Shown: one piece after another, positions 1,458 to 52,594 of the stretch
Position numbering within the stretch: the first letter of the stretch is position 1
Layout: each line of letters begins with the position of its first letter
Virus record (IMG/VR): IMGVR_UViG_3300006793_000034
Span: 1 to 57,289 of that record
Length of the DNA stretch: 57,289 nt
Origin: a virus
Strand: one strand, 5' to 3'
Translations under genes and position numbers: made by a program
Notes under the pieces: model-generated
The model's input: only the letters and a program-made list of their open reading frames with translations
Database searches by the model: none
Told to the model about the DNA's origin: nothing

Positions 1458-1507
1458 ACCCCTCTTTGAGCGAAGTGTTTTTTTGTTTGGTGCTTTTACA
1501 GACGAAC

Positions 1508-4536: not shown

Positions 4537-5369
4537 TGACCGCCTTTGACGCCGCATTCTCCATGCTCAAAATAGACGAGGGCATGTGGGAGGAAATCTA
4601 TGCCCCTCTCTTTGAGGTGTTGGGAGGGAGAGGTCAAAACCCCCACCGAAAGGCTGGAACGAACTCTCCGCTTGACTTTATGCTGACGAGCGATCTGCCC
4701 GAAGAAAGACACTGGCAATTGCAGGAACCCGACGACTCCGAATACATTGAGAGATTGATGCAAAGTATTCTTGAAGATGGATATATGGGTCGTGATTCTT
4801 CACATTGGCGGTGGAGGGACGACACACCCGAACAAGGCCGTGCAAGATACGACGCAAACAAAAGAGGGGAAACGACTGTCGGGAATGTAGCAATCCCAAA
4901 CATTGGATTTGACAGGCAGGGGTGGGTCATTGGAGAAGGAAACCACCGAACAGCCGCTTTGCGACGATTAGGCGCACCTTACATTCCCACCTATGCTTCT
5001 TCTAATTCTTGGGGGCGCAAAAGCCAACACCCATATTCCGCCGAATTGCCTATGGGCGAGGACTTGAAGCGATGGATGGGTGCGGATATGAGCGATGAGG
5101 ATTACCTTAACCACTCCGAAGGTTATGGGATTGGGGCAAATGTGGGTCGCCGAGGGATGGGTATGCCGACCTCATTCTTGTTCGGTCAAGAATTGGTTCC
5201 CGGTATGGGGCGAATGGTTCCCGATTTGCCCGATGGCTTAACTGCGGCTGACATGCCGCTTGCTGAAACAAGACGCTTTGATGGGCATTGGGGCAAAGCA
5301 AATGACCCCGAAGGACATTTTTATCAATTTCAAAACGATCCGAAGTGGAAGGTGGTTCACGATGAATGA
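4536..5369 (+). CDS. Tagged protein with ParB/sulfiredoxin-like domain
   Basis: The 277-residue product starts with MTAFDAAFSMLK. Residues about 70-85 (YIERLMQSILEDGY) and about 133-146 (GEGNHRTAALRRLG) match the two halves of a ParB N-terminal/Srx-like fold: an E-x-L-x-x-S-I helix and the G-x-G-x-H-R nucleotide-binding loop. Family members bind CTP or ATP and act as DNA-binding switches, nucleases or kinases. There is no HTH like that of chromosomal ParB, which favours a stand-alone enzyme over a partition protein. The start codon shares one base with the previous stop (TAATG). Confidence 0.75.
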   Translation: MTAFDAAFSMLKIDEGMWEEIYAPLFEVLGGRGQNPHRKAGTNSPLDFMLTSDLPEERHWQLQEPDDSEYIERLMQSILEDGYMGRDSSHWRWRDDTPEQGRARYDANKRGETTVGNVAIPNIGFDRQGWVIGEGNHRTAALRRLGAPYIPTYASSNSWGRKSQHPYSAELPMGEDLKRWMGADMSDEDYLNHSEGYGIGANVGRRGMGMPTSFLFGQELVPGMGRMVPDLPDGLTAADMPLAETRRFDGHWGKANDPEGHFYQFQNDPKWKVVHDE

Positions 5370-5847
5370 CGCCTTTGACACCGCATGGGAATTGGTGAAA
5401 GCACCAATACGAGGAACACAGGACAAATACTACGATCAAGCCATGCAAGAAGGCGTGATACCTGCAAGGCAGGTTGAAAAGGATCGTAAAGGGGTTTGGG
5501 CGAGCGATTCTATGGCTACGGCTCTTGCTTATGCTCTCGGTGCGGCAAAACCCGATGAAGCCCCCTTAGTCCATTATTTACCACGAAACATAGAAGGCGT
5601 TGGTGATTATGACGAATATACGGGTTATGGTTATTATCCGTTTGATATTCCCGCCGAACATTCACAGGAGATATGGAGAGGGCAACCCTATGCGGATTGG
5701 GAAAAGGAAATGAATGACAAGTATTATGCCGCTATGGATGCTGACGATTTACCTTTGCCTAAACAACCAACAAGGCATAGATGGAGAGCCGCTATGACCC
5801 CATTAGCAAATGAAGCACTTGAGAGGTGGAATAATGACCGCCTTTGA
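5362..5847 (+). CDS. Tagged small protein, ART-like
   Basis: I place the start at ATG 5362, preceded by AAGGTGG, giving 161 residues that begin MNDAFDTAWELVKAP. The segment GVWASDSMATALAYALG (about residues 46-62) resembles the strand-helix of ADP-ribosyltransferase-like proteins where a V-x-A-T/S-D motif is followed by A-x-x-Y-A. The same element recurs in the second half of the next gene as YWTPDKEKALAYAL, which suggests paralogy. No catalytic residues can be proved. The stop lies inside the next gene's tag (14-base overlap). Confidence 0.7.
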   Translation: MNDAFDTAWELVKAPIRGTQDKYYDQAMQEGVIPARQVEKDRKGVWASDSMATALAYALGAAKPDEAPLVHYLPRNIEGVGDYDEYTGYGYYPFDIPAEHSQEIWRGQPYADWEKEMNDKYYAAMDADDLPLPKQPTRHRWRAAMTPLANEALERWNNDRL

Positions 5848-7114
5848 CCGAGCATGGGAACTCACCAAAGCGTTCCCAAACATGGAATACTGGCACGGGA
5901 CAACAGCCGACGCCGCCCGACAAATCCTTGATGAAGGGCTTGAGGCTTGGTCGTTTGGCGCAGACGACCCCGATGATCCGGAAATGTATTCGCTTGACCG
6001 AATGGAAGCCCGAAATGAAGCACCGGCCATGCTTGCCTTTGACACCACACCCGAACACACTATCCACGATCCAAAAGAACAAGGTTATGACATTGGTTCG
6101 GAATATGGGCATTGGTTGGTTGAAGAACCCGTTTCGCCCGAAAATGTTCGGTTGTTTGCGATGGGGAGCAAGGACATGGACGGGGATGAATGGATTCGGT
6201 TTTTGGATATGCTAAGGGCCGCTGACAGACTTTCTTATCGCTATCCCGACATGGATGAGGCTTACGCTAACCGTGCTGTGCAAAAGGCATGGGAACTCAT
6301 CAAGGCTCCGTGGGACATTGACCCTGCCCCAAATCACGATTATGGTTATGAGGCGGGCAAATTGGGCGAAGTCGCAGGGCCGTTATATTCCGGTGGTGAC
6401 AGAATACACGACGAGTTCACATACTGGACACCGGACAAAGAGAAAGCGTTGGCGTATGCCCTCTTTGGTTCGGCTATCCCAACATCCCAAAGCCAAAGAT
6501 TCGTCACCGAAGGCGTTCCCATGCGAGAAACATACCCAGCAATCAAGGTCGCACCCGACCCCGGTGTGGATGAACACGGGCGGAATGCCTCGTTTGTCAC
6601 AGAAGACCCGCAATCAAAGGACTACATTCAAGACCAACAAGAAGGCATGGACGCCGAGTTCATGGATGAAGGCGAATTGTTGGACTGGATTTCTTCGCTA
6701 ATTCCGGATCCCATGAGTGAAAAACCAAATTATGATGTTGAAGCACGGGGTGGGAACCGTATTCCCGGTTTGCCACTTTTGGGGACATCAGCGAAACGAC
6801 ATGGCCGAGAAGCCATTATAGATCACATGGAGATGGCCTTAAACAGACTACAACGAGGGGCTTCGGGGCATGTCGCCCTGCCCGATGAACTGTTGCCGCA
6901 TCTTTCAACCAGTCGTAGTGATAACCTCCATGATTTGTCTTTGGATGAAATGGAACAAATGTGGCGAGAGGACTTGTTTGAAGAGTGGGAAAAGAACTAC
7001 ATTCGTTTGAATAAGCGTGGGCATTGGTTTAATGCCATCCACTTAAACGGCTTAGACCCCGAATGGGATGCCAACAGGGACATGGGTGTTCAATTGCACG
7101 AACGGGGGGGTTGA
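5834..7114 (+). CDS. Double-tagged tandem ART-like protein
   Basis: The 426-residue protein looks like two tagged units joined together. Unit one has the tag MTAFDRAWELTK (1-12), then YWHGTTADAARQILDEGL (about 19-36), a strong match to the H-G-T-x-x-x-A-x-x-I-x-x-x-G-L start of ART/Tpt1-like domains, and PVSPENVRLF near residue 100. Unit two has a second tag (RAVQKAWELIKAPW, 147-160), then a YWTPDKEKALAYAL element matching the preceding gene. The natural reading is gene fusion or duplication of effector cassettes. If active, the product would modify host protein or RNA with ADP-ribose. The ATG at 5834 follows AGGTGG. Confidence 0.75.
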   Translation: MTAFDRAWELTKAFPNMEYWHGTTADAARQILDEGLEAWSFGADDPDDPEMYSLDRMEARNEAPAMLAFDTTPEHTIHDPKEQGYDIGSEYGHWLVEEPVSPENVRLFAMGSKDMDGDEWIRFLDMLRAADRLSYRYPDMDEAYANRAVQKAWELIKAPWDIDPAPNHDYGYEAGKLGEVAGPLYSGGDRIHDEFTYWTPDKEKALAYALFGSAIPTSQSQRFVTEGVPMRETYPAIKVAPDPGVDEHGRNASFVTEDPQSKDYIQDQQEGMDAEFMDEGELLDWISSLIPDPMSEKPNYDVEARGGNRIPGLPLLGTSAKRHGREAIIDHMEMALNRLQRGASGHVALPDELLPHLSTSRSDNLHDLSLDEMEQMWREDLFEEWEKNYIRLNKRGHWFNAIHLNGLDPEWDANRDMGVQLHERGG

Positions 7115-7116
7115 AC

Positions 7117-7233
7117 ATGGAAGGCGACTCGTTGGGTATGTTGTTGCTAAAAGGGCTGGGAGCCATGCTCTTAATCCCAATCCTTATCATTTTACTCCCC
7201 TTAGCGTGGCTGTATTCGGTGGTGATGGAGTGA
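7117..7233 (+). CDS. 38-residue single-pass membrane peptide
   Basis: An ATG at 7117, two bases after the previous stop, opens a 38-residue frame: a short polar start (MEGDSLG), a hydrophobic run of about 25 residues rich in Leu and Ile, and an acidic end. Its TGA overlaps the GTG start of the next gene (GTGA, 7230-7233), the same coupling as elsewhere in the operon, which supports it being real. It is the only gene in this run without the shared tag. Holin-like, spanin-like or membrane-delivery roles are possible, none proved. Confidence 0.6.
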   Translation: MEGDSLGMLLLKGLGAMLLIPILIILLPLAWLYSVVME

Positions 7234-7976
7234 CGAGCAACAGTTCCTTTGAACGAGCGTTTTCACTGCTGAAAATGCCCTTTGTTCCCGGTTCAGTGCG
7301 CCCTTTGGAGGGCGAGTTCATGGAGGGCGACGACGACCACGCACCAGCGCAAAAGTTCGTAGGCGACTTCTATGACCCCATAGACGACCGAACTCTCCCT
7401 ATCAACATTGAACCAGCAAGGGATTGGATAGGAGAAGACAACCCCTCGCACGGCTTTGGGCGCAAACACAAGCGCATGGATCGTATGGACGCCGCTGTCA
7501 TTCCTATGGACATGATTGACGAAGACCGTGAAAGTGAAATGCAGTTCGGTATGCCTCAAAAGAACCCTTTTGCCGCTATCATTGACAATTTGATTGAACG
7601 GGTTTATGTTCCCAGTGATTTGCGAAGAAGGGAAATGGGGCAGGGGCTTTTGGACGCCTTATTGGAATACCGAACCAATTTCGCAAATAGAGGGCGAATG
7701 AAACCGTCCCGTGAAAACACAGGCGACATGCTTGGGCTTTTAGCAAGTCGTGGTTTATTTCCCCGTGGTTTAGCACGAATACCCAAAGAACAGAATTGGA
7801 ATGACCCCGACACACAATACATGCACAGCGAGTGGCCGGACAGTGCCCATTGGCAAAACGCCGAAGACGCCAATTTTCCCAACAAAGTTCCTAAACATAG
7901 GTGGGAAAAACGATGGAACGAGGCAGGAAAGCAATACGCAAGAGATCAAGAAGAAATGTGGGGTGATGGGCCGTGA
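7230..7976 (+). CDS. Tagged GNAT acetyltransferase-like protein
   Basis: The GTG at 7230 places the shared signature (SSFERAFSLLKMP) at residues 5-17 of a 248-residue product; longer upstream readings would run through the preceding membrane-peptide gene. Residues about 124-148 (ERVYVPSDLRRREMGQGLLDALLEY) match GNAT motif A: the V-x-P-x-x-R strand, the R/Q-x-x-G-x-G loop and the following helix. The enzyme should use acetyl-CoA; the acceptor is unknown. The C-terminal 60 residues are Trp-, Asp- and Lys-rich. Its stop overlaps the next start (GTGA). Confidence 0.75.
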   Translation: MTSNSSFERAFSLLKMPFVPGSVRPLEGEFMEGDDDHAPAQKFVGDFYDPIDDRTLPINIEPARDWIGEDNPSHGFGRKHKRMDRMDAAVIPMDMIDEDRESEMQFGMPQKNPFAAIIDNLIERVYVPSDLRRREMGQGLLDALLEYRTNFANRGRMKPSRENTGDMLGLLASRGLFPRGLARIPKEQNWNDPDTQYMHSEWPDSAHWQNAEDANFPNKVPKHRWEKRWNEAGKQYARDQEEMWGDGP

Positions 7977-8155
7977 GCGCATTCGATCAAGCCTTCGCTT
8001 TGCTCAAAAGACAGGAATGTCAGTCTTGTGATGCACCAACAGAAGAGGAATGTTCCGTTTGTGGTTGGTCTGTGTGTGAACCCGATGGTTCTTGTTCGCA
8101 CCATAACGATGAGGGCGAGATTGTTTGCGACGACTGTTTAGAGGGTGATGATTGA
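7973..8155 (+). CDS. Tagged 60-residue zinc-finger protein
   Basis: GTG 7973 opens a product that is almost only tag plus a metal site: MSAFDQAFALLKRQ, then C-x2-C, C-x2-C, a further Cys, a His pair and a final C-x2-C, enough ligands for two zinc ions. The DNA of its tag (7991-8008) is identical over 18 bases to the next gene's tag (8173-8190), indicating recent duplication or conversion. It could be a binding module or a degraded effector. Start and stop overlap the neighbouring genes. Confidence 0.75.
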   Translation: MSAFDQAFALLKRQECQSCDAPTEEECSVCGWSVCEPDGSCSHHNDEGEIVCDDCLEGDD

Positions 8156-9537
8156 TGGCCGCATTTGACCGAGCCTTCGCTTTGCTCAAAGAAAGCGCAA
8201 GTAAATGGGAATACCGACAAAACCCCCACGACGAACCCGGTGGCTTCGGTGTCCAAGACTGGGAACTTAACCCAAATAATATGCCCGATGATGGAACGGG
8301 TGTCGCTCGTTTGTTCCCAAACCGTTGGCTGTATTTGCCGGATGGGGAGGAAATGCCCAACCAATACAAAGCCCATTCATACTCAAGAGTTCAACCTTCT
8401 CTTGGCCGCAAAACCCAAGCCATGTTGGCTGATGGTGGATCTTTGCCGGACAATTTTGATGAAGAAGCAATTCAATACCTAAGCAGGGTTGGTTCGCACG
8501 AATCCATGCACCAAGCCCTGCACGGTGTAAAACCGGAGATGGTTCACCAACCAATCATAGGGCACGAAGCAGGGGCGGTTATGGGCGAGTTCAAGGATTG
8601 GGGCGACATAAGAGAAAGGATGCGGTGGCTGAAAAGCCACCCACGCATTGGCGAATCCTCACAACGCCAAATACAAGAGGTGTTGGACGCTTTGGTTGAC
8701 AAGAACCCCGAAGAACAGGCGCAAATAATGGGGCACAGGGCAAGGGGCAACGCTATGAACCAAATGTCAATGCAAACAGAACTTGAGCGACTTCAAGCGG
8801 CTGAAAAAGAACTTGAAGCCGAAATAGACGAGGTTGAGCGTGAGATATACCGACCAAAAAGAACGACTCAAAGTTTTTTTGACTACAACGATAATTGGGA
8901 TGCCGAACAAGAAAAGCAAGAAAAGCAAGAAAGGCTCCGTGAAGTGTATAGACGATACCAAGAGATAGGGGGTCAAATCATGGACATTGAAAGAAAAATC
9001 ATCAAAGCACCCCTGTATTATCCCGATGAGGACTGGGGTGATATGGACGACCCCGACTACGCTGGCCCCACCGAAGGCGGTGCATCGGCACGGGAAAAAG
9101 AGAACTTTCCCGATTACATGGAGGATCTGATGGCACCAGCAGGGTTCTCCGATGTTTCGTGGCAATCCGAGGACGGAATGGCGAGAGGTGTGGCTCAATT
9201 GAACTTTGACACAGGGCAGGTGAATGTTCACCACTTTGAGGTCGCAACCCCTGTGAGGGACAGTGGGCTTGGTGAATCATACCTCCGTGAAATGATTCAA
9301 GAGATTGAAGCGGATATGATGGGCCAAGTTGTCCATGACGGACAATTTCATGCCCATGCTACAAAGGTTGAACCCGAAAAAGCGGGCTTTTGGGACAAAA
9401 TGGTTGACCGAGGTGCTATACACAGTGCTTCGTCACGAACGAACCCCCGTGTCACCCAAGACGGCAAATACTTCGCTCCTAAGATCAGCAGTGATAAATT
9501 AGAGCCGTGGGATTGGTTGGGCGAAGACGACATTTAG
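8155..9537 (+). CDS. Tagged HExxH metalloprotease-like protein with C-terminal GNAT-like domain
   Basis: ATG 8155, overlapping the previous stop by one base, gives 460 residues starting MAAFDRAFALLK. H115-E-S-M-H119 fits the zincin HExxH motif, and a G-H-E about 25 residues later could supply the third ligand. A coiled coil rich in Glu, Arg and Leu spans about 195-290. The C-terminal part (about 363-375, VATPVRDSGLGESYL, then FWDKM) fits the GNAT acetyl-CoA loop and terminal strand. The product may therefore combine peptidase and acetyltransferase activities. It converges on the thermosome gene with only two bases between stops. Confidence 0.75.
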   Translation: MAAFDRAFALLKESASKWEYRQNPHDEPGGFGVQDWELNPNNMPDDGTGVARLFPNRWLYLPDGEEMPNQYKAHSYSRVQPSLGRKTQAMLADGGSLPDNFDEEAIQYLSRVGSHESMHQALHGVKPEMVHQPIIGHEAGAVMGEFKDWGDIRERMRWLKSHPRIGESSQRQIQEVLDALVDKNPEEQAQIMGHRARGNAMNQMSMQTELERLQAAEKELEAEIDEVEREIYRPKRTTQSFFDYNDNWDAEQEKQEKQERLREVYRRYQEIGGQIMDIERKIIKAPLYYPDEDWGDMDDPDYAGPTEGGASAREKENFPDYMEDLMAPAGFSDVSWQSEDGMARGVAQLNFDTGQVNVHHFEVATPVRDSGLGESYLREMIQEIEADMMGQVVHDGQFHAHATKVEPEKAGFWDKMVDRGAIHSASSRTNPRVTQDGKYFAPKISSDKLEPWDWLGEDDI

Positions 9538-9539
9538 CG

Positions 9540-11111
9540 TTATCGTGGGCCAGCCTTGCGTGATGAAATCACATCATCAATGCGGAGAATCATGGTCGCT
9601 GTTTCAACAGCCGACTTCAATGCCTGTGCCACAACACGCTTTGGCTCATATACACCGGCTTCACCCATGTGCATGACGCCACCAGCCAATACATTGACAC
9701 CGTGATGATGGTTTCCTTCGGCATGTGCCTTGCGTAGTGCCATCATTTCATCAACAGGGTCAAGACCGCCGTTTTCAGCAAGTGTTCGTGGAATGACCTC
9801 AAGTGCCTGTGAGAAAGCCTCCAAAGCCATGCGGTCACGACCACCGATAGTGAGAGCGTGATTAGCGAGATCCCTGCTTAGAGAAGCATAGATTGACCCG
9901 CCACCAGTGAGAACTTCGCCGTCTTCATAGGCAACAGCCACTACACCGACCGCATCGTCAAATGCTCGTTCAATTTCTTCAACGAATGGTGCTGTGCCGC
10001 CTCGCAGAAGCAAGGTGACAGCCGAAGAGTTCGGTGTGGAGAAGAAAGACATTGGCAATTCGCCCACTTTCTTTTCCGTGAGGCTTTCACAGGAACCAAG
10101 AGCCTCTTCAATATCCTCAAGGTTGTTGATGATGCCCGCACCCGTAGCACGGGAAAGTGCCTCCATGTCGGAACGCTTGACCTTTTCAAGCCCAAAGACG
10201 CCAGCCTTTGACAAATAATGCTTGGCGAGGTCGTCAATTCCCTTTTGACAAACGACAACGGTTGCACCGCTGTCAACAATTGCTTTGACAAGTTCACGGA
10301 TGTAGCCTTCTTCTTGCTCTAAGAAAGCAGTGATTTGGCTCGGATCAGTGATTTGAATGTTGGCGTCCATTTCAGTGGACTTCACTTCAAGGGGGAAATC
10401 AATGAGAAGCACTTTTCCGTTGGAAATGCCCGCTGGCATCCCGCTGTGCGCTCGCTCTTTATCAACGATAATGCCGCTGATGAGTTCGCTGTCATGTGCG
10501 TCGCCACCAATAGCCTTCACCACATTGATTTGAGTTAGATCAACAGCCCCGTTTTGGGCAAGTGCCTCCACTGTATCAACGCAAATACCACCGAGGTGGT
10601 CTTTGATTGAAGCAGATGATTTGCCAGTGAGTGCTGTGGTTGCGATAGCAAGTAAGCGATCTTCGGTTTTTTCGGCATAAGCGTCCAATTTACCTGCTAT
10701 GAACTGCCCTCCTTCACGGAATGCCGAACAAATCGTGGTCGGGTGGATGTTTTGGGTGATGAGTTCTTCGGACTTCTTGAGAAGTTCGCCGGAAAGAACA
10801 ACCGCACTGGTTGTCCCATCGTAGCATTCTTGCTCTTGAGTCTTTGCGACTTCAATAATCATCTTCGCCGCAGGGTGATCGATGTCCATTTCACCGAGGA
10901 TGGTTGCTCCGTCGTTGGTGATGATAACATCGCCACCTTCGTCAACGAGCATTTTGTCCATGCCTTTCGGGCCGAGAGTGCTTCGCACTGCGTCAGCGAC
11001 CGCTTTTGCGGCGGCGATGTTGTTTGACTGTGCCACTCGTCCGTGGCTTCGCTCGGTTCCTTCTTTGAGAATGAAGATTGGTTGCTGTCCGTTTGGCATC
11101 ATGTTGCTCAA
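9540..11111 (-). CDS. Group II chaperonin (thermosome subunit)
   Basis: The 523-residue protein is collinear with archaeal thermosome subunits over its full length. Nucleotide-binding motifs are present: LGPKGMDKM (46-54), TNDGATIL (65-72), DGTTS (98-102, preceded by Tyr instead of the usual Gly), GGG (403-405) and GLDPVD near 455. It lacks the Gly/Met-rich C-terminal tail common in cellular subunits. It would form an ATP-driven double ring that folds proteins in the cytoplasm, either viral capsid and tail proteins or host clients. It is one of the few minus-strand genes, flanked by convergent and divergent plus-strand genes, so it probably has its own promoter. Confidence 0.95.
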
Positions 11112-11232
11112 TCACTGCTCATCATCAATGGCTTATCAATGTTGTGAGGCTTAACAGCCTTAACATAAAAAAGAACGGGTTCGGGATGCTTTCATCGGCA
11201 GTTATTTGAAACCCGCTTTACATAGCGCACCC
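11112..11232. promoter_or_regulatory. Divergent promoter region between thermosome and plus-strand genes
   Basis: The start codons face away from each other across 121 bp. On the minus strand a T-rich TTTTTTATGTTA element (about 11163-11174) lies roughly 55 bases before the thermosome start and could be a TATA-type box. The complementary A-rich stretch could serve the plus-strand gene. Exact elements are uncertain. Confidence 0.35.
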
Positions 11233-12723
11233 ATGCCGAGTATGGGAGGACGACCTTCGCCGCCCAACGGCGGGCCTCGGATTGGGTTATACCCCGACGC
11301 CCAACCTCCAAACGAATACGGTGAAATTGAAGTTCCCGAAGAAGTTCAAATGGAGGACGGTGACTCATGTTGCGACGATGCAAAGGAAAAATTGGCACAG
11401 TCTTGGAGTGATAAAAACAATTTTTCACCCAGTCAATACCAACAATTGAGAAGCCAATTAGATTCAATGGACTGTGGTGAGTTCCGAATGATGTTGGAAA
11501 CGATACCGGGCACAGGGCCGGGGACTGACATGGCTAACCATGAAAGCAACATTAACCGCGATCAGAACATTTTAGACGAATGGGACGAATGTGCCAGCCG
11601 AACAAGCATGGGGATGAAATATGCCTCGGCAGATCCGTTTGAGGCCGCATGGGACATCATGCAAAAGCAAATCGGGCGTGAGGACTTTACCTATCGGATG
11701 GCCGTTCAACCCCACTTGATGTCAAACAAGTTCGGCAACATGCCTCCCGAATTGGGATTGAGAACCACTGGTAAATTGCCAATCAAAGAAGCCATCCGGC
11801 ACCTTGAGAACTCTCAAAGCATTGAGGACTTCGCACGCACGAAGGGTTGGGAAAGTGCCGAAGATGTTGGATTGAAATTGGAGGACTTTGACGATGAAGA
11901 TCAGTTCTATGAAGCCCAAGCCGAAATGGGCGTTGGCTATGACCCACTAGATCACTTGGCGGGCGAATATCAGTATTTCCGCCCTTATCACGCTAAAGAC
12001 ATAGCAAGAAGACCGGATGGAGGCATTACAGATGCAGAAATCCTGCGTGTCAATATGGAGGGGATGGGGCACCCCAACGAGTATAGAGAAGCATTCCCAG
12101 CGGTGGCAAGGGACACTATGCTTGAAGGACTTGACTCAAGGCTTGAGGCAGGTGCGACAAAAGCACCAGTGTCCACTGGCTCAATAAGTGCGATGGGACA
12201 AGGCCCGATGATCGATGTCAACCCTGCGTTTGCAGGAATGGGGCTGGGATATTCAACCCTCGCATCCCTCTTAGAAAACACTGGGAGGCTTCAAGAAAAT
12301 TACATGAGTGCTGGGGGTCTTGCTACATTACAAGGTCTTGGTCGCAAATTGGATGAGGCGGGGATTGGGCACAACATGAGTATATCACCTATGGCCCAAA
12401 GGCCCGTGATGAATGCCCAGCAACAATTGAACAATTGGCAAGAAAGCAACGCTCGCTATCCCCATCAAGGAACCGCTGAAATGTCAATAGACGACGGAAC
12501 GCAATTGACACATCAAGGAACACCGGACAAATTAGGCTACATTACACATTCAATCAATCAGCAATTGGACAATGAACGGCCCTCAACGATTCAAGAATTG
12601 AAAGCCATGCTTGAAGCGTCAAAGCGGCGACGGGGAATCATGGGGGGTATGCCGCCGTCAATGAACAGGTTCCCTCCATTCTCGGCACCTTCGTGGCAAG
12701 AACGCATATCGTGGGGTGAATGA
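11233..12723 (+). CDS. Unknown protein with internal tag-like motif
   Basis: The frame is open from a TTG at 11206; I prefer ATG 11233 (496 residues) but the start is uncertain. An N-terminal Gly/Pro-rich stretch is followed by an acidic segment with a CC pair. DPFEAAWDIMQKQ (134-146) resembles the operon tag but is internal and one residue longer before the Lys. The rest is Met-, Gln- and Asn-rich and helical, with no recognisable catalytic motif. It abuts the next tagged gene with no gap (TGAATG). A virion structural or internal protein seems more likely than an enzyme. Confidence 0.6.
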   Translation: MPSMGGRPSPPNGGPRIGLYPDAQPPNEYGEIEVPEEVQMEDGDSCCDDAKEKLAQSWSDKNNFSPSQYQQLRSQLDSMDCGEFRMMLETIPGTGPGTDMANHESNINRDQNILDEWDECASRTSMGMKYASADPFEAAWDIMQKQIGREDFTYRMAVQPHLMSNKFGNMPPELGLRTTGKLPIKEAIRHLENSQSIEDFARTKGWESAEDVGLKLEDFDDEDQFYEAQAEMGVGYDPLDHLAGEYQYFRPYHAKDIARRPDGGITDAEILRVNMEGMGHPNEYREAFPAVARDTMLEGLDSRLEAGATKAPVSTGSISAMGQGPMIDVNPAFAGMGLGYSTLASLLENTGRLQENYMSAGGLATLQGLGRKLDEAGIGHNMSISPMAQRPVMNAQQQLNNWQESNARYPHQGTAEMSIDDGTQLTHQGTPDKLGYITHSINQQLDNERPSTIQELKAMLEASKRRRGIMGGMPPSMNRFPPFSAPSWQERISWGE

Positions 12724-13200
12724 ATGAGCGCAATTGATGTGGGTTTCAGTCTGTTGAAAAACGACGATTTAGACGACATACCCGCTGAAAACAAAGGCGG
12801 GGATTGTTATTACAATTCATTCAATTACATGTGCGCCAATCCCAATCACACACTTGTTCATGCCCAAGTGACCCCACTCATGGGGCCGCTGGCTGGTCGC
12901 CCTTACGGGCACGCATTCACCACTTTCATGGGTGAAGACGGCAGGAAGATGGTTCACGACCCCAGTGCCGATGGAGGCAAAGGAATGACAATACCTGCCG
13001 ATGTCTATTATGGGATAGGGCAAATCGGTGCCCCAAACATGATTGAATACAGCCATGAAGAAATGTTGCGCCAAATCCAAGACACCATGCACGCAGGGCC
13101 GTGGGATCCAATGACTGAACAATGGATGCACAGTTCCGACGAAGACCGTCAAAAAAAGCGTGAGATGGATGGCGAATTGCTTGACGATGGTGAGGAATGA
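12724..13200 (+). CDS. Tagged papain-like cysteine protease or amidase
   Basis: The 158-residue protein starts MSAIDVGFSLLKND, a variant of the tag with Ile for Phe and Gly for Ala. Three spaced motifs match a Cys-His-Asp active site of papain-like or C39-like folds: GDCYYNS with Cys28, GHAF with His63, and HDPS with Asp79. These would give a thiol hydrolase acting on peptide or isopeptide bonds. A transglutaminase-like fold is an alternative. The gene abuts the previous stop and overlaps the next start by four bases. Confidence 0.7.
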   Translation: MSAIDVGFSLLKNDDLDDIPAENKGGDCYYNSFNYMCANPNHTLVHAQVTPLMGPLAGRPYGHAFTTFMGEDGRKMVHDPSADGGKGMTIPADVYYGIGQIGAPNMIEYSHEEMLRQIQDTMHAGPWDPMTEQWMHSSDEDRQKKREMDGELLDDGEE

Positions 13201-14288
13201 TGGTTGAGCCTTTTGACATCGCAGGTTTGAAAGCCAATCCCGACTGGATGCGAGGTAAAGCAATACCCGGTTATGTCAAACACCCCGGAAACAAAAACAA
13301 ACCTCACTACAACACTCTTGGTCGGTATGCCGCCCAACAAGCAGGAACCACAGGTATTCAAGACCCTGCAAGCGGGCCGGGTGGCTTCATTCAAGGTATT
13401 TTGCCCGAAGGGACGAGCCAAATGAACGAATGGGATGTCGGCCTCCATAACTTGACACAACAAGTGAAGCAGGGTGGGTTCACTGTCCCATTTGACGAAG
13501 GGCCGATGGATAAACAGCGTTGGATGGACGACATACGAGGAACCACCATATCGCAAATCAATTTGGGGAACTTGCCAAATCAAGGTTCACTGAACAACAC
13601 TCTCCATCGTTTGCGACAAGGCTTGGACTGGAATGACATGACTCCCGAAGAAAAAGTGGCTTTTGCGAGGATTTACTACAAAAACAAGAAAACTGGTCGG
13701 CAAGGAGGCATAAGAGCCGGAACTGGCTACAACAACAACACTGCTGGTTCACTCCGTCCTTTCAATGTGGGACAGGTGGACGACCTATCACATTACGCCC
13801 CTTTGTTTGCTGACACTGAATTGAGGCAAGGTGATGCCACAGAAGCCTTACGAGAATGGGATGTGGACACCGACAAATTGTTGACTTCGGATCCGCCCTA
13901 TGAAGGAGAACCTTCAACCTATTCGGGGAACTTTGCACTACAAGGCTATTTGCGAGAATTACAAGAACGCTTAGAAGAAGGACAGCCAATGATTGCCTTT
14001 GACAGTGCCGAAGTCGCTCCATTGTATGCCGACATCGGACTTGAACCGCAAATTATGAATCGGCCCGACAACACAGCACCAACAGGGAAACACCGAGGAA
14101 TAAAACCGGAAATGGTTGCTTTTGGGAACATTGAGGGCTTAGAACCTCTTGAACTCTTGAGTCGTTTCGGTCATAACAAATATGCACCCGATTCAAAGCA
14201 ACAGTCCGAATTATTGGACTTTGAACTCTCCGAACCCCAAAATGCCTTTGAACATGGGTGGGCTGTGCTGAAACAGGAGGAACACTGA
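13197..14288 (+). CDS. D12-class adenine-N6 DNA methyltransferase-like protein with C-terminal tag
   Basis: The 363-residue product has features of Dam/D12 methyltransferases: an EWDVGLHNLTQQVK segment (about 80-93) like the family's acidic loop, IRAGTGYNNN near 180, a GDATEAL strand, and DPPY at 232-235, the catalytic motif that holds the flipped adenine. The N-terminal FxGxG cofactor motif is only loosely recognisable (GGFIQG). The last 15 residues (NAFEHGWAVLKQEEH) are the operon tag at the C-terminus instead of the N-terminus. It could methylate host or viral DNA at entry or during infection. ATG 13197 or the adjacent ATG 13200 may start it. Confidence 0.7.
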   Translation: MMVEPFDIAGLKANPDWMRGKAIPGYVKHPGNKNKPHYNTLGRYAAQQAGTTGIQDPASGPGGFIQGILPEGTSQMNEWDVGLHNLTQQVKQGGFTVPFDEGPMDKQRWMDDIRGTTISQINLGNLPNQGSLNNTLHRLRQGLDWNDMTPEEKVAFARIYYKNKKTGRQGGIRAGTGYNNNTAGSLRPFNVGQVDDLSHYAPLFADTELRQGDATEALREWDVDTDKLLTSDPPYEGEPSTYSGNFALQGYLRELQERLEEGQPMIAFDSAEVAPLYADIGLEPQIMNRPDNTAPTGKHRGIKPEMVAFGNIEGLEPLELLSRFGHNKYAPDSKQQSELLDFELSEPQNAFEHGWAVLKQEEH

Positions 14289-20597: not shown

Positions 20598-21308
20598 ATG
20601 ACGGGGAGGCGTGTTCGCAGGAATTGTCCTTTTTGTCAAGACGACAGGCGTGATCAATGGGAACAACAAATCCGCATTGGATTGCTTGAACCCGCCGAAT
20701 TAGATTTGACCCATGACTGGCCCGAAGGCACTGCACATCGCCACATGAGAAGGCATTCCGGCGAGTATCATAACAATAGCAATACAGAATGTCCTCTATG
20801 CACTCATCCCGAAAGAGCCAACATTGAACACGCTGTCCTTGAGCGTCTTGTCAGTATGGACGACATGGCGACTGAATTGGACATAAGCGAAGAGGCTCTT
20901 GCTCAACACATGGAAAATCACACTCAACCTATCATTCAACGACAGGTCAACATGGAGATTATGCCCGCCGCCATTGACAGCGCACGCACGGCCATGCAAC
21001 AAAGTGAGCGAAACCTCCAACGACTTAATGGACTCTTTAACGACCACTTGGATCTGATGCAAGAGGAACGGATGGAGTCGGGGACACTTGACTACAAGGG
21101 ATTAGACACCGCAGTAAAACTGCACCGTGAAGTCCGTGATTCATTGACCGAGATTGGCGAGTGGCTGGAAAAGGCCGAGGCCGTTGGTGGCAACGAACAG
21201 GTCAGCGTCTTGACAGTCATACAAGCACACTTCTCCGAAAAGTCGCCCGAAGAGTGGCGAGTCATGCGTAAGGCGTTAGCCGAAGCGGGGGTGCTTGAAG
21301 ATGGCTAA
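20598..21308 (+). CDS. Tandem zinc/helix-turn-helix protein, candidate small terminase subunit
   Basis: The 236-residue product begins with two copies of one module: C-P-F-C followed about 40 residues later by H-M-R-R-H, then C-P-L-C followed by H-M-E-N-H. Each module encloses a predicted helical pair; the second reads like an HTH (MDDMATELDISEEALAQH). The C-terminal two thirds is coiled-coil-like, suited to oligomerisation. DNA-binding HTH plus an oligomer domain, in the interval before the large terminase, fits a small terminase subunit; a transcription regulator is the alternative. Confidence 0.55.
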   Translation: MTGRRVRRNCPFCQDDRRDQWEQQIRIGLLEPAELDLTHDWPEGTAHRHMRRHSGEYHNNSNTECPLCTHPERANIEHAVLERLVSMDDMATELDISEEALAQHMENHTQPIIQRQVNMEIMPAAIDSARTAMQQSERNLQRLNGLFNDHLDLMQEERMESGTLDYKGLDTAVKLHREVRDSLTEIGEWLEKAEAVGGNEQVSVLTVIQAHFSEKSPEEWRVMRKALAEAGVLEDG

Positions 21309-21711
21309 TGAATGTGCAACGATGAACTGTGAAGACAAATCCGACAAAGACGATTTCGCATACTGTGGACAAGGCAATTGTTCCTCATGCGGTGGTGGAT
21401 GCGGTGATGATAATTGCTCAAAGTGCAACCGCCGTCCAAAATGGGGTTCTAAGAAGGCATCCATTGACCGAGCGTTCAGCACAGGTTGGTCTATCATCAA
21501 AGCAAAGACACCTCGCTTTTGTCCCATGTGCATGTCTTCGGAATTAGAACTTGACACGAAAGAGGATAACCTGCGGGAATTGAAAGAGGGAAGAGGTTCA
21601 TATCGCTTTGATAGAGATCCTGCTTATTTGAGGCGTGAAGAACAAAAAATCATGCAAGGCCCGAATTATTGGGGCTATTGCTTGAATTGTGATCATGAGA
21701 TGGAGGGTTAG
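21301..21711 (+). CDS. Cys-rich protein with internal tag
   Basis: ATG 21301 gives 136 residues. A Cys-rich N-terminus (ten Cys in about 45 residues, in C-x2-C and C-x3-C pairs) is followed by SIDRAFSTGWSIIKAKTP; residues 59-67 fit the tag consensus. C-P-M-C and C-L-N-C pairs follow, forming a zinc ribbon across the rest. It overlaps the previous gene by eight bases. The Cys region ahead of the tag is also seen in the gene at 22625. Confidence 0.65.
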   Translation: MANECATMNCEDKSDKDDFAYCGQGNCSSCGGGCGDDNCSKCNRRPKWGSKKASIDRAFSTGWSIIKAKTPRFCPMCMSSELELDTKEDNLRELKEGRGSYRFDRDPAYLRREEQKIMQGPNYWGYCLNCDHEMEG

Positions 21712-21714
21712 TCA

Positions 21715-22137
21715 ATGGATGAAAGAGGCTATCAAACAATCCCAGCGTTGATGTTGAAGCACACCGAATACGCTGAACTATTGCACGGCAACAGCGACAT
21801 TTTTACAATGTGTGAAGCACTGCAAATGTGCGACGCACTTGAAGAAGTCGTCGGGGTGTGGAAAGAAGGTCTTGACGCATTTGGCCTCACATCCCAAGAG
21901 GATTGCTCAAGTGAAGCATTAGGCGCAATCATGCTCATGCGTATGGGCTTTCACGATCTCAAGAAGGCTTTGCCCGAAGTTCCCCGTGAAGAAGCCGACG
22001 AACTTTTGCGAGCCGTAGCAAGGGCGTTCCTGCCTTTGGCTCAATCATACTCCAAGACACCAATGTTGGCGCAGTGGTATATGGGACTCCCTATACTCGT
22101 TGCCGAAACATACAACCGCTTGAGGGGGCAACGATAA
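21715..22137 (+). CDS. Unknown all-helical protein
   Basis: The 140-residue protein is predicted to be helical throughout, with hydrophobic heptad-like stretches and three Cys residues. It lies between two tag-bearing genes; its stop overlaps the next start (TAATG). No domain is recognised. Confidence 0.6.
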   Translation: MDERGYQTIPALMLKHTEYAELLHGNSDIFTMCEALQMCDALEEVVGVWKEGLDAFGLTSQEDCSSEALGAIMLMRMGFHDLKKALPEVPREEADELLRAVARAFLPLAQSYSKTPMLAQWYMGLPILVAETYNRLRGQR

Positions 22138-22625
22138 TGCAAGCAATAGGAAGAAACGCATTTTTAGCAGGACTTGAGTTCATCAAAGAAGATCCATGTT
22201 GGGACGGCTACGAGCAAGTCGGCATGAAAAATAAGGGAGGGCGTGAAGTGCCGAACTGTGTCCCAGCGAGCAAGAAAATACCGGACAGCAAAAAGAAAAG
22301 TAAAGTGAAGAAGTCAATTTGCTCTTGTCCCGAATGCCACATGATGGCTAAGGCACTTCTCACCAAAGAAAGCGACAAACCCTTTCACGGCTACAATCCA
22401 AACAAACACAGCCGCAAAGGCGGATTGAACGCTAAAGGCCGTGCAAAGGCCAAGCGTGAAGAAGGAGCAAACCTCAAACCACCAGTCACCGAAAAGAACC
22501 CGACTGGCAAAAAGAAGGCACGAAAGAAGTCCTTCTGTGCCCGTATGGGTGGTGTCAAAGGGCCGACCAGCAAAGGCGGCAAAAAGACACCAAAGGGTGC
22601 CGCACTTGATAGGTGGAATTGCTAA
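22137..22625 (+). CDS. Basic Cys/Gly protein of a marine phage virion-associated family
   Basis: The 162-residue protein starts with a tag-like NAFLAGLEFIK (F9-K17), then DPCWDGYEQVGMKNK and VPNCVP, a string that recurs in virion proteins of many marine phages. The lysine-rich C-terminal half has GGLNAKGRAKAKREEG and ends KSFCARMGG ... RWNC, which I associate with phage proteins annotated as DUF6321 (from memory, not searched). It probably binds DNA or the capsid lining. Start and stop both overlap neighbours by one base. Confidence 0.65.
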   Translation: MQAIGRNAFLAGLEFIKEDPCWDGYEQVGMKNKGGREVPNCVPASKKIPDSKKKSKVKKSICSCPECHMMAKALLTKESDKPFHGYNPNKHSRKGGLNAKGRAKAKREEGANLKPPVTEKNPTGKKKARKKSFCARMGGVKGPTSKGGKKTPKGAALDRWNC

Positions 22626-22990
22626 TGAAAGACGGTTGCTGTTGCGGTGCGACAAAATCTAAACCATGCGTTTGCATGAAGAAAGGCATAACAAAATGTT
22701 CAAGCAAAGAGCCGAAGTGCCCTTGCTACAAAGCGAAGGATTTGAAGAAGTCTTTTGATGCTGGTTGGTCTGTGGTGAAAATGAACCCACGCTTGCCAAA
22801 GGACGGTGCGCTTGACGGAGTTCTTTCAAGGAACCCCGACCCACCAACCATGCACGCAGGTATGCCGAGAGATCCCGATTTGTTGGCTCGCTTGAAGCGA
22901 ATGCACGAAGCAAAAATGAAAGAGGAAGAGGAAAACACTGTTGACTTTGACCCCGAAACCGCCAAATACGGAATTAACAATTTAGAGTGA
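22625..22990 (+). CDS. Cys-rich tagged protein
   Basis: ATG 22625 overlaps the previous TAA. The 121-residue product begins MKDGCCCGAT and has eight Cys in its first 35 residues (CCC, C-V-C, C, C-P-C), followed by KSFDAGWSVVKMNPR; residues 44-52 fit the tag consensus. The tail is charged and helical. The Cys cluster ahead of the tag could bind metal or form disulfides. Its arrangement parallels the gene at 21301. Confidence 0.65.
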   Translation: MKDGCCCGATKSKPCVCMKKGITKCSSKEPKCPCYKAKDLKKSFDAGWSVVKMNPRLPKDGALDGVLSRNPDPPTMHAGMPRDPDLLARLKRMHEAKMKEEEENTVDFDPETAKYGINNLE

Positions 22991-41979: not shown

Positions 41980-43146
41980 ATGAGTGGAAGCACAGGATAT
42001 ATTCGCACAATTGAAGACATGGAACGACTCTATTACGGAGCCGGAACAGGACAAAACGCATGGGCATACGCTGGAACCGACCTTTTGAAGTCGGACTCCC
42101 CGCTAATGTCCTCAACCGGCGGAACATACCAAGCGATCTTCGGTCGTAAAGTATGGTCGCAATTGAACCAAGAGTTCAACGCATTCTCCATCCTCCCTAA
42201 GAAACCGTGGGAGAAGAGTGGATGGCGTGTCACCACAGCAAAGCCGGACTTCGGAAAAGGCGGCGGTGTGGCTGAAAACGCAACCCTACCGGAAACCACC
42301 AAGCCGACCTTTGAGCATGTTTCAACCAAGCCAAAGACGGTTGCACACTCCTTTGACCTCTCCGAAACAGCCATGTTCTTGGCTGACAAGGATGATGGAC
42401 TGGGCGATGCACGGGCTGTTATCAAAATGGAAATGGCAAAGCACCACACAGAACACATCAACAAGATGCTTCTTCAAGATGTCAACACTGTTGCTGGAAA
42501 CGACTTTGAGTCCCTTGACAGAATCACTTCTTCGTCTTTCGTTGAAAGCACAGGCTTCGGCGACATTGACGCAATCAGCAATCACAACATTTACAACCTC
42601 ACCCGAAACGGTGCTGGGGCTGGATCTCAACAGTGGTATGACGCTCAAGTGGACGCAGGTGCAAACAACGGAACTGACCGTGCTTTGACCCTCAACATTC
42701 TTGACGGAATGTTCCGACAGATTTGGGAAGCAGGAGGTCAGCCAAAGGTTATCCTCACTGGCTACGACACTCTTGAAACCATTCAGCAATTGCTCCAACC
42801 TCAACAACGATTCGTTGAGATGAAGCGTGTCGTCCCCGGCGTCAATGGCGTTAAGGGTGTTCCGGGCATTCAAGGTGGATTCATGGTCGCAACCTACAAC
42901 GGTGTCCCAATCATCCCATCTAAGGATGTTCACAAGGGCACTGGCGGTTCTTCTCGCCTTTACTTCTTGGACACAGACTACTTGTGGTTCACCACTGCAA
43001 AGCCAACACTCTATCACGAATCGGGAATTGAAACCGGAGATCCTTTCGGTATCAACAGGCTCGGACAAATGGGAATGTTTCACACAATGGGTGAACTCAT
43101 CGCATCTTTCTTCAAGGCAAGCGGAAAAATCCGTGACCTATCGTGA
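41980..43146 (+). CDS. Major capsid protein (HK97 fold)
   Basis: The 388-residue protein follows protease/scaffold with a strong AAGGAGATGATT site. It has an N-terminal helical segment of about 37 residues (a possible delta domain, ending DLLK at 34-37), then E-loop and A/P-domain-like features: QLNQEFNAFSILPKKPW, FDLSETAMF, a long spine helix region (about 140-165) and GFMVATYNGVPIIPSKD, frequent in HK97-type capsids. It builds the icosahedral shell. Confidence 0.9.
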   Translation: MSGSTGYIRTIEDMERLYYGAGTGQNAWAYAGTDLLKSDSPLMSSTGGTYQAIFGRKVWSQLNQEFNAFSILPKKPWEKSGWRVTTAKPDFGKGGGVAENATLPETTKPTFEHVSTKPKTVAHSFDLSETAMFLADKDDGLGDARAVIKMEMAKHHTEHINKMLLQDVNTVAGNDFESLDRITSSSFVESTGFGDIDAISNHNIYNLTRNGAGAGSQQWYDAQVDAGANNGTDRALTLNILDGMFRQIWEAGGQPKVILTGYDTLETIQQLLQPQQRFVEMKRVVPGVNGVKGVPGIQGGFMVATYNGVPIIPSKDVHKGTGGSSRLYFLDTDYLWFTTAKPTLYHESGIETGDPFGINRLGQMGMFHTMGELIASFFKASGKIRDLS

Positions 43147-43608: not shown

Positions 43609-44052
43609 GTGGCAATACTACAATATGTTGGCGACAGGCCGTATGTTGAGTTCAAGGTTGGACAAAAGACATTCGGCTTCGCAAGAGGCACAGAACGAAG
43701 TGATGTTCCCAAAGAACTTCTTGAGCGTTTCAAGGGCGACAATTTCCCACAGTGGAAAGTCATTGGCGGCGAAGAAAAGAAGTCCGAGGAAAAGACCAAG
43801 AAAATGGTTGAAGTGATCGAAGCCCCCGCTGTGGTTGAAGAAACACCAGCACCGGCACCAAAGACAGTCGCCACTGACGAGGACAAGACCGAGCAGATGG
43901 CTGACGCTATCATTCCGCCTTTTGACACTACATGGACAAGAGCCAAAATGGTTGACTGGATGAAGTCGCAGGGTGAAAGCGTATCAAAGGCTGACACCAA
44001 AGCAATTCTCACTGAAAGGGCACATGCACTCACCTCAAAGGGTGATGAGTGA
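43609..44052 (+). CDS. Small head/neck protein with C-terminal SAP/HeH-like motif
   Basis: GTG 43609 opens 147 residues. The N-terminal 50 residues look like a beta domain (YVEFKVGQKTFGF), followed by a charged Pro/Glu linker and a helix-extension-helix segment (WTRAKMVDWMKSQGESVSKADTK) resembling SAP/HeH DNA-binding modules seen in phage neck proteins. It overlaps the next start by one base. Confidence 0.6.
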   Translation: MAILQYVGDRPYVEFKVGQKTFGFARGTERSDVPKELLERFKGDNFPQWKVIGGEEKKSEEKTKKMVEVIEAPAVVEETPAPAPKTVATDEDKTEQMADAIIPPFDTTWTRAKMVDWMKSQGESVSKADTKAILTERAHALTSKGDE

Positions 44053-49955: not shown

Positions 49956-49997
49956 CGAGGACAAGGTATATTAACAACAATGAGAAGGGTGAGAACA

Positions 49998-50354
49998 ATG
50001 GTAAGACTGACAGGATATGTGAACATCGCAGGGCGACGAGAATACTTGAATTGGACAATAGAAGGAACAAGCATCATTGAAGGTGCTGGCCTGTCCAGTG
50101 GAGAAATCGTTGTCCATGCTGACGCTCCTGTCGCTTCACCCGCCCCTGCAACACCAGCAACACCGGAATTGGCCCCAGCGGAGCCGACATCATACGACGA
50201 CATGAACAAGACCGAATTACAGGTCTTGTGTAGTCAGCGTGAACTGTCAACCGCAGGAACCAAAGCCGACTTGATTGCTCGTTTGAACGAAGGCGATGAA
50301 GCCGAACCAGCAACCGAAGGTGAAACAGATGGCGGAGAAAGCGATAGCGAGTGA
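49998..50354 (+). CDS. Small protein with SAP-like domain
   Basis: ATG 49998 follows AGGGTGAG; ATG 49980 is in frame. The 118-residue protein has an N-terminal strand region (RLTGYVNIAG), an Ala/Pro linker, and a SAP/HeH helix-loop-helix (MNKTELQVLCSQRELSTAGTKADLIARL). It overlaps the next gene by 26 bases. Its tail-module position suggests tail tip or tube decoration; DNA contact is possible. Confidence 0.6.
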   Translation: MVRLTGYVNIAGRREYLNWTIEGTSIIEGAGLSSGEIVVHADAPVASPAPATPATPELAPAEPTSYDDMNKTELQVLCSQRELSTAGTKADLIARLNEGDEAEPATEGETDGGESDSE

Positions 50355-50694
50355 TTTAATCACAGGCACAGATGCAGAAGAAACGAGAGTGGAAACACCA
50401 TACGGGGAAATGACCCTTTGGATCCGCCCTCTTTCTTGGGTTGATCGGCAAAAAGCACTGACGAAGTTCGTGTCCTTGTCGGCTGACGGGGACGGAAATA
50501 TGGCTCCGAAAATTGACTTCGGGGGCTACTGGAAGTTCGTTCTCACGACCTGCATTGAGCGCACAGAACCCGCACTCACGACAAAGCAATTGCTGAACAT
50601 TCGCCCCGAAGTCGGTGCCGCAATACAGGCTGTATTGCCTTCATTTGAGGATTTGATGGCCGGTATGGCCGGTGCAAGCGGCCCTTTGGAATAA
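50329..50694 (+). CDS. Tail assembly chaperone, short form (gpG-like)
   Basis: The 121-residue protein starts at ATG 50329 with AAGGTGAAA upstream. It has a beta-rich N-terminus and a helical region ending GASGPLE. It lies directly upstream of the tape measure gene, the standard place for the G/GT chaperone pair, and carries a -1 slippery heptamer six codons or fewer before its stop. It should coat the tape measure during tail assembly. Confidence 0.7.
   Translation: MAEKAIASDLITGTDAEETRVETPYGEMTLWIRPLSWVDRQKALTKFVSLSADGDGNMAPKIDFGGYWKFVLTTCIERTEPALTTKQLLNIRPEVGAAIQAVLPSFEDLMAGMAGASGPLE
50682..50688 (+). promoter_or_regulatory. -1 programmed frameshift site CCCTTTG
   Basis: Read in frame as C CCT TTG, this is a canonical X-XXY-YYZ slippery heptamer just before the TAA at 50692. 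A -1 slip continues through GGA ATA ACC into the frame open to 51023, giving a fusion of about 231 residues. Slippery sites at this gene position are conserved in many long-tailed phages. Confidence 0.65.
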
Positions 50695-50717
50695 CCCTTG
50701 ATGATGTCCGTTCATTT

Positions 50718-51023
50718 ATGAAATGGGATGGAGAGGGCGAACTGCCGATTGACGATTACAAAATACCAGTTATTGCTGGCAACATGCCCACCTTTTTTCT
50801 CGGACATTTTTTCAAGTGTGCCCCTTCTTCATGGGATCACTTGCCACCCGAAAGAGTCGTTTTAGACTACTTCACATTGTCGGCATATAAGGAGATGGAG
50901 GCCGAACAGATGGAACAATTGAAGCGTGAGAACACCGTCGGTGCAAACAAGGGGCGGTCAGTTCGCACTACAAGTGACTCCGACTTCTTTGAGCGAATGA
51001 ATGCAAAACTGGGGAGTGAGTGA
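50718..51023 (+). CDS. Tail assembly chaperone extension (T part of G-T fusion)
   Basis: The frame is open from before the slippery site; 50718 is the first ATG in frame, giving 101 residues if started independently. No clear ribosome site precedes it. Via a -1 slip at 50682-50688 it fuses to the upstream chaperone with the junction GPFGITLDDVR. The C-terminal helix is rich in Glu, Gln and Met. It overlaps the tape measure start region by a few bases. Confidence 0.65.
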   Translation: MKWDGEGELPIDDYKIPVIAGNMPTFFLGHFFKCAPSSWDHLPPERVVLDYFTLSAYKEMEAEQMEQLKRENTVGANKGRSVRTTSDSDFFERMNAKLGSE

Positions 51024-51025
51024 AT

Positions 51026-52594
51026 ATGGGAGCAGTAAAGAAACTCGATCTGGAGTTCGCTGATGGTGTGTCCACCCTTGAAGCATACAGGGACGCACTG
51101 GCTATTCTCCCCGATAAAACCCGTGTTCTTTTGAAGGTCTTTGGGCCTTTAATGTCCACCTATTTGAAGGTGGATTTAGCACTTCAAAGCCTCAACAAAA
51201 CCTTCGGGGATTCGTCAAAACCAATTGAAGAACTTGGCGACACTATGGAGGAAAGTGGCGACAAAGTGGAAAAAAGTGGAGGTGCTATGGGCAAGGCGGT
51301 GAGCGTTCTCAACGCCCCTTTTGTAGCACTTGGTGGCACTCTCAAACTGGTCGGAAGCATGTTCAAAAGCCTGTTGTTGGGACTATTGCCCCTCATGGGC
51401 GTCGTCATGGCCGTCACGGGTATTGTCATGTTATTTGTCGCCGCCTTTGACGCTGGCGGAGGGAAACTGAAACAATGGCTGGCTGATTTGCCGATTATCG
51501 GGGGGATGATGGCTACAATTGAAGCGGCGATCCAAGCGGTCAAGGACATTTGGGAAACACTGAAAGCCAACCTCACTTTGCCCGAAGGGACTGACAGCGA
51601 ATCATTCTTCACAGGCATTATTGACGGGATCACGATGGTTTATGAGATATTTCAAGGCTACTGGATGATGATTATTGAACTCATCAGTGCATACATCACT
51701 GCACTGGCCGAGTCGGGGCTTCTCCAAGCCATTATTGATGCAATCGTTTCCGTTTATGATTCTTTCATGGAGGCTTGGGACATGATCATGGGTGCCTTTG
51801 GCGACGGGGGAGTGCAGAACTTCTTTGATATGGTCGTCGGCTTGTTTCAATATACAATGGACTTTTTGGTGAGTTCGGGCATATTTGCATTCATTGGTGA
51901 CATTATTCAATTGGTTGGTGAAATCATCGGCACAGTGGTGTTCCTTGCGGCGGTCATTATTCGCATCGTCGTTGAAATTGTCAAGTTCGTCTATCCGTAT
52001 GTCGCACCATACTACAAAATGCTGATTGCCGCATTCGGCATGATCCTCACCGTCGTCATGGGTGTTGTTCGCACTATTATGAAACTCGTCAGTGCCTTCG
52101 TCGCACTGCTTCGTGGCGACTTTGACAAAGTGGGTGAAATCCTATACTCAATCAAGGACATTTGGGTTGATGTGTTGGACGGAGTGATAGGCTTTTTCAA
52201 AGGTTTCATCAACAACCTCATTGATTTCGCCAGCCCTGCTTTGAAACTCATAAACAAGGTCATAGGTGCCTTTAACGCCATCAATCCATTCGGTGAAATA
52301 CCGGAAATTGACATTGGTGGCCTCAAACTCGCAAAGGGTGGCGTAGTCAGTGGGCCAAAGTCCGGCTATCCAGCCGAACTACACGGCACAGAAGCCGTAG
52401 TCCCACTGCCCGACGGGCGCACTATCCCAGTCACCATGCAAGGTGGGGGCGGAATGGGTGGAGAAACGACAATCAACATCAATGTCAGCGGCGCAAGCGG
52501 CGACCCTCGCAAGATAGCACGAATGGTGGGTGATGAAGTCGGGCGTTTGTTCAAAAGCCGTTCACGCACTGGTGGTTTCAGCAGGGGGGTATGA
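51026..52594 (+). CDS. Tape measure protein
   Basis: ATG 51026 (GTG 51020 is in frame) gives 522 residues. A charged N-terminal helix is followed by hydrophobic helical segments (about 95-460) with many Ile, Met, Val and Phe, then GGVVSGPKSGYPAELHGTEAVVPLPDGR, a C-terminal signature common in tape measure proteins, and a Gly/Arg-rich tail. If the usual rule of about 1.5 angstrom per residue holds, the tail would be roughly 75-80 nm. It follows the chaperone pair. Confidence 0.85.
   Translation: MGAVKKLDLEFADGVSTLEAYRDALAILPDKTRVLLKVFGPLMSTYLKVDLALQSLNKTFGDSSKPIEELGDTMEESGDKVEKSGGAMGKAVSVLNAPFVALGGTLKLVGSMFKSLLLGLLPLMGVVMAVTGIVMLFVAAFDAGGGKLKQWLADLPIIGGMMATIEAAIQAVKDIWETLKANLTLPEGTDSESFFTGIIDGITMVYEIFQGYWMMIIELISAYITALAESGLLQAIIDAIVSVYDSFMEAWDMIMGAFGDGGVQNFFDMVVGLFQYTMDFLVSSGIFAFIGDIIQLVGEIIGTVVFLAAVIIRIVVEIVKFVYPYVAPYYKMLIAAFGMILTVVMGVVRTIMKLVSAFVALLRGDFDKVGEILYSIKDIWVDVLDGVIGFFKGFINNLIDFASPALKLINKVIGAFNAINPFGEIPEIDIGGLKLAKGGVVSGPKSGYPAELHGTEAVVPLPDGRTIPVTMQGGGGMGGETTININVSGASGDPRKIARMVGDEVGRLFKSRSRTGGFSRGV

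Follow-up and report, generated by a model that had tools for sequence, protein, structure and literature searches.

Two overlapping reading frames upstream of the tape measure gene

The analysed stretch of viral DNA (57,289 nt, IMG/VR record IMGVR_UViG_3300006793_000034; in the following, the window) contains two overlapping open reading frames directly upstream of a tail tape measure gene. The second of them is in the -1 frame with respect to the first (Table 1). The first frame carries the heptamer C_CCT_TTG in slippery phase close to its end, and the sequence bears out its position, its phase and the borders of the ORF as given in the preliminary description. Starting at 50649, the -1 frame has no stop until a TGA that ends at 51023. 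It was said to extend to the immediate vicinity of the tape measure gene, and both the ORFs and the PHROG match of the latter confirm this: The tape measure ORF (524 aa) starts with GTG at 51020 or ATG at 51026 and leaves no gap after the -1 frame. By a rough estimate, the 45-nt overlap has a chance of 2-3% of containing some in-phase X_XXY_YYZ motif (Y = A/T). CCCTTTG was not found in slippery phase among the 6,971 codons of 12 further genes of the window.

Table 1. Positions of the frameshift locus and of genes used for virus affiliation in the window
Feature	Position	Strand	Basis
0-frame gene, predicted tail assembly chaperone (G-like), 121 aa	50329..50694	+	ATG 50329; PHROG 25860, hhalign, fold match
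Putative -1 slippery heptamer C_CCT_TTG	50682..50688	+	same in 63/63 and 65/65 loci; codons 19/19
0-frame stop TAA, one codon past heptamer	50692..50694	+	position common to 63/63 loci found with the first protein
-1 frame coding region (putative T-like C-terminal extension), 111 aa + stop	50688..51023	+	conservation in 19 representatives
Predicted downstream stem, 5' arm CCCTT	50695..50699	+	6 nt past heptamer; MFE folds; modest in window
Predicted downstream stem, 3' arm GAGGG	50733..50737	+	MFE folds, sub-family pair count
Tail tape measure protein gene	51020..52594	+	PHROG tape measure families, best E 2.1e-14
Major capsid protein gene	41980..43146	+	SU10_MCP E 3.2e-10
Thermosome (group II chaperonin) subunit gene	9540..11111	-	NF041082, 656.8 bits (cut-off 450)

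The first protein as a predicted tail chaperone

Sequence comparison and modelling predict a role as tail assembly chaperone for the first protein and a relationship to its counterparts in the haloviruses HCTV-2 and HHTV-2. A match to PHROG 25860 (tail assembly chaperone) was obtained for 13 of 19 members, with a best E-value of 2.6e-5. The profile of the first protein aligned with the annotated HCTV-2 chaperone and its HHTV-2 counterpart (hhalign 92.3%, E 5.5e-7). Its predicted fold has a mean pLDDT of 78, and the best named fold match is the HHTV-2 tail assembly chaperone (E 6.6e-6), followed by several phage tail-assembly or tape-measure chaperones with weak E-values. Sequence and fold searches against the PDB yielded no match. 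Thus, PHROG, profile-profile and fold comparisons agree with the identity that had been proposed for this gene. For the second (T) domain, neither a PHROG nor a fold match was found; T domains are generally too divergent for such a comparison. Neither protein has relatives in 50,697 phage records searched by tblastn, and none were found in bacterial or archaeal genome contigs. In all relatives that reach far enough (62/62), a long ORF begins within a few bases after T.

Conservation of the slip site

IMG/VR profile searches yielded 31 loci at first and later 63 with the first protein and, in an independent search, 65 with the second protein. Both sets share contigs, and the 63 loci correspond to 43 distinct junctions. 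Altogether, about a hundred related viral contigs have the same slip site. In 63/63 and 65/65 loci, respectively, the position of CCCTTTG is the same, although the identity of the first protein across the 63 loci ranges from 40 to 100%. In each of the 63 loci the 0-frame stop follows exactly one codon after the heptamer (TAA in 57, TGA in 6). The preliminary description had called for a check of this conservation and had named findings that would refute its proposal, among them a heptamer that is not conserved and fused frames: The heptamer is fully conserved, and no fused frames were found among the relatives.

This conservation concerns the nucleotides and not only the encoded amino acids. 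In 19 non-redundant members, the Pro codon is always CCT and the Leu codon always TTG (19/19 each), whereas in other Pro/Leu columns only about 15-36% of the same-residue pairs use the same codon. The codon preceding the heptamer varies (GGC, GAC, AGC, GCC, TCC, AAC, CGC, ACC), but its final base is always C, which selection at the protein level does not explain. Strong nucleotide-level selection acts on the heptamer.

A second codon-invariant column of the chaperone alignment, AGT GAT, is attributable to the conserved stop overlap of the upstream gene 49980-50354 (+). This gene encodes a SAP/HeH-like C-terminal stretch and overlaps the chaperone gene by 26 nt; the gene at 43609-44052 has a similar ending.

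A predicted hairpin downstream of the heptamer

MFE folds place the start of a stem about 6 nt after the heptamer. The 45 nt following the stop were compared with synonymous-codon shuffles that preserve the -1 protein. For the 19 members, the folding energy was -13.0 kcal/mol compared to -7.4 kcal/mol in the null (z -9), while 9 of 10 windows slid further along the gene ranged between z -1.5 and +1.2. Twenty further non-redundant loci, which had no part in the first noticing of the stem, gave a z of -7.6 (-8.4 in a rerun). In 31/39 loci the first paired base lies 5-8 nt from the heptamer. In a 16-sequence sub-family with one register, 4/8 pairs display changes on both sides; the pair measures surpass almost every shuffle and every slid version, with the sub-family and the structure having been picked after the stem was seen. 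RNAalifold found no common stem in the 19-sequence alignment, since the 3' arm slides in register. The hairpin is absent or different in a few members and modest in the window itself, where z varies with window length from -1.6 to about 0. Therefore, the hairpin is claimed for the family: Folding comparisons predict a stimulatory downstream structure family-wide and a modest one in the window.

An upstream stimulator was considered, too. SD-like GGTGA/GGAGG motifs are frequent before the heptamer and more so than at other positions of the gene. They do not exceed synonymous shuffles, so that the amino acids account for them, and no such stimulator is claimed. The last of the ten slid windows, at about 50934-50980 (+) late in the -1 frame ORF and just before the tape measure start, was likewise more folded than its synonymous shuffles in the 19 members (z -5.3).

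How the -1 frame is reached

In 19 representatives, conservation of the second protein starts at the first codon after the heptamer. Across the first 11 codons of the -1 frame, the window differs from its relatives L018 or L022 by synonymous changes only, and the other two frames contain stops there. The first ATG of the -1 frame in the window is at 50718, and AlphaFold2 predicts a confident N-terminal helix from the residues before it (mean pLDDT 94 for residues 1-10). These data bear on the possibility that no frameshift occurs and the second frame forms a gene of its own, with translation starting by termination-reinitiation or internally, e.g. at ATG 50718. In tightly packed viral operons, ribosomes commonly reinitiate a short way past a stop, and the window as well as most of its closer relatives have this early ATG, 12 codons into the -1 frame. 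However, ATG 50718 lacks an SD-like sequence in the 15 nt before it, in line with the earlier statement that the second frame has no good ribosome site, and neither ATG, GTG nor TTG occurs in codons 1-20 of the -1 frame at 18 of the 43 distinct junctions. Conservation as protein upstream of the ATG, the missing SD-like sequence, the junctions without an early start and the helix make reinitiation unlikely, and the first three led to its rejection as the main mode. The same upstream conservation contradicts the idea, named at the outset as one that would refute the proposal, that close relatives reinitiate differently. A separate gene, which would moreover leave the invariant CCCTTTG and its phase unexplained, is regarded as very unlikely.

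The -1 frame might also be entered by another kind of recoding, i.e. slippage of the RNA polymerase, a +2 shift or a short hop. Going by the resulting frame alone, -1 and +2 look the same. On the other hand, there is no long homopolymer run on which a polymerase could slip, and the sequence that never varies fits X_XXY_YYZ perfectly, is correctly phased and has a hairpin at the customary spacing, which renders such events highly improbable. That the heptamer is there by chance or that an assembly or sequencing error has split one gene has a negligible probability. The bare heptamer is indeed common in the window (16 copies vs. 12.2 expected), but all independently assembled relatives exhibit the same arrangement and its nucleotides are under strong selection; its recurrence at the same position in 63/63 and 65/65 loci rules out chance.

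Proposed mechanism

With high confidence, the locus is interpreted from its sequence as the signal for a programmed -1 ribosomal frameshift between the two tail assembly chaperone frames of a tailed virus of archaea, the hosts being probably marine Poseidoniales. This proposal builds on the observed heptamer and frames, the nucleotide-level selection, the family-wide hairpin and the chaperone homology. In this marine archaeal virus, a -1 slip at CCCTTTG very probably gives rise to a second version of the tail-building chaperone. That ribosomes slip in the host, how often they do so and how G and GT share the work is inferred as follows. Most ribosomes would read the 0-frame to its stop and synthesize G, the chaperone of 121 aa. 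Some ribosomes, with their Pro-tRNA and Leu-tRNA paired to CCU and UUG, would slip one base back onto CCC and UUU, assisted in most family members by the downstream hairpin about 6 nt away. These ribosomes would continue in the -1 frame to yield a GT fusion of ~231 aa with the junction ...ASGPL|GITLDD.... The junction peptide predicted earlier, GPFGITLDD, does not agree with tandem slippage, which gives GPL-GITLDD with the Leu from TTG; for GPFGITLDD to arise, slippage would have to precede the decoding of the A-site codon. In other family members, the corresponding junction would read, for example, APLGITLDD or NPLGITFSE. By analogy to lambda, G might coat the tape measure protein, tail-tube subunits might be recruited by the T domain, and the G:GT ratio would likewise be taken from lambda.

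A further-reaching proposal is tentative and nearly evenly balanced: The family might represent a distinct archaeal signal composed of an obligatory invariant C_CCU_UUG and a positionally anchored hairpin of free sequence, with the heptamer fixed by the Pro/Leu tRNAs or the ribosome of the host. If so, comparative evidence for slip site and stimulatory RNA structure alike would be available for an archaeal -1 frameshift for the first time.

Comparison with known systems

Among tailed phages, G/GT frameshifting as in lambda is widespread (PMC5009743). The lambda chaperone gene, which precedes the tape measure gene, undergoes a low-level -1 frameshift close to its end (PMC5009743), as is proposed here, whereas the host is bacterial and the proteins and the slip site are different. 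Among archaeal viruses, a -1 frameshift of the gene pair has been reported or predicted for HVTV-1, HCTV-1, HCTV-2 and HCTV-5 (PMC5009743, PMC8211752) and that of the tail chaperone pair for Hardycor1 (PMC7911831). A review from 2021 lists one experimentally shown archaeal -1 frameshift and reports in a few haloviruses (PMC8211752). Hence, the mechanism is not new in an archaeal host. The earlier suggestion of a G/GT arrangement used in such a host is supported, but its novelty is not, as the haloviruses precede it (PMC5009743, PMC8211752, PMC7911831). The new aspects are C_CCU_UUG as the site, the fact that it never varies, and the conserved hairpin downstream.

A joined -1 CDS is present in three Druskaviridae records and one Saparoviridae record, and the heptamers G_GGA_AAG, G_GGA_AAC and A_AAA_AAC were found in three of these four. 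The Saparoviridae HCTV-2 (genes 40/41) and HHTV-2 (genes 47/48) resemble the window in that the chaperone precedes the tape measure gene and the G proteins are homologous; by contrast, their T domains have no detected relation to the T domain here. The joined CDS of HCTV-2 is annotated at A_AAA_AAC (PMC5009743) instead of C_CCT_TTG. In HHTV-2, the homologous chaperone is followed by an ORF in the -1 frame, and no X_XXY_YYZ site was found in the overlap (L177:31040-31076), so that this virus may use another shift signal or separate initiation. The Druskaviridae HVTV-1, HCTV-5 and HCTV-1 share the gene order, the annotated joined -1 CDS and a related major capsid protein with the window, but they have G_GGA_AAG or G_GGA_AAC as heptamer and a stop 27 nt later. 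A direct homology to their chaperones was considered and found unsupported (hhalign 7.9%).

Slip sites of the C_CCU_UUN type include CCCUUUA of Giardiavirus, for which a downstream pseudoknot was proposed as partner. In contrast to the virus studied here, Giardiavirus is an RNA virus of a eukaryote, and its -1 model was later questioned (PMC8230311). A full-text literature search for CCCUUUG together with frameshift returned only an unrelated West Nile virus prediction. At eukaryotic slip sites, G is disfavoured at position Z. C_CCU_UUG has Z = G, which counts against the frameshift reading.

The tail-chaperone pair is an exceptionally well-conserved case with an uncommon heptamer of a mechanism already predicted for haloarchaeal viruses. 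The family adds about a hundred viral contigs, probably of marine-archaeal viruses, to the few archaeal -1 frameshift cases. With selection visible on both heptamer and hairpin, the evolutionary evidence for frameshifting in an archaeal virus is unusually strong, so that -1 frameshifting in archaea can be put to the test with simple reporter assays or by looking for junction peptides in marine metaproteomes. Automated gene prediction would split up a single chaperone product in such genomes.

Host and virus affiliation

An archaeal host, as assumed earlier, is well supported by two genes. The window encodes a thermosome subunit, whose best PDB match is the Thermoplasma-type thermosome 1a6d, and a major capsid protein for which tblastn retrieved nine matches in 50,697 records, all of them archaeal viruses. 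Additionally, 1496-2398 (+) encodes an HMG-CoA-lyase-like protein (Pfam HMGL-like, E 1.2e-19); its best NCBIfam is hydroxymethylglutaryl-CoA lyase, with a score below the cut-off of that family. Aoguangviridae, which are linked to Poseidoniales, carry a chaperonin (named GroEL there) and an HMG-CoA lyase (PMC10768690), and the window thus has gene types described for them. A placement in Magrovirales, for which a relation to Druskaviridae would be a further mark, is tentative. Judged from these genes, Poseidoniales are the likely host.

Two observations concern other parts of the window. The thermosome gene lies on the strand opposite to its neighbours, and its product shares 50% identity with a Woesearchaeota MAG protein, the sole match of a pattern-limited genome scan. 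At 2395-14288 and 21295-22990 (+), about a dozen successive genes encode proteins with the N-terminal motif M-x-AFD-x-AF-x-LLK, for instance MTAFDQAFTLLKMP and MNAFDSAFELLKAQ, as though unrelated proteins had been given one shared tag for targeting or packaging.
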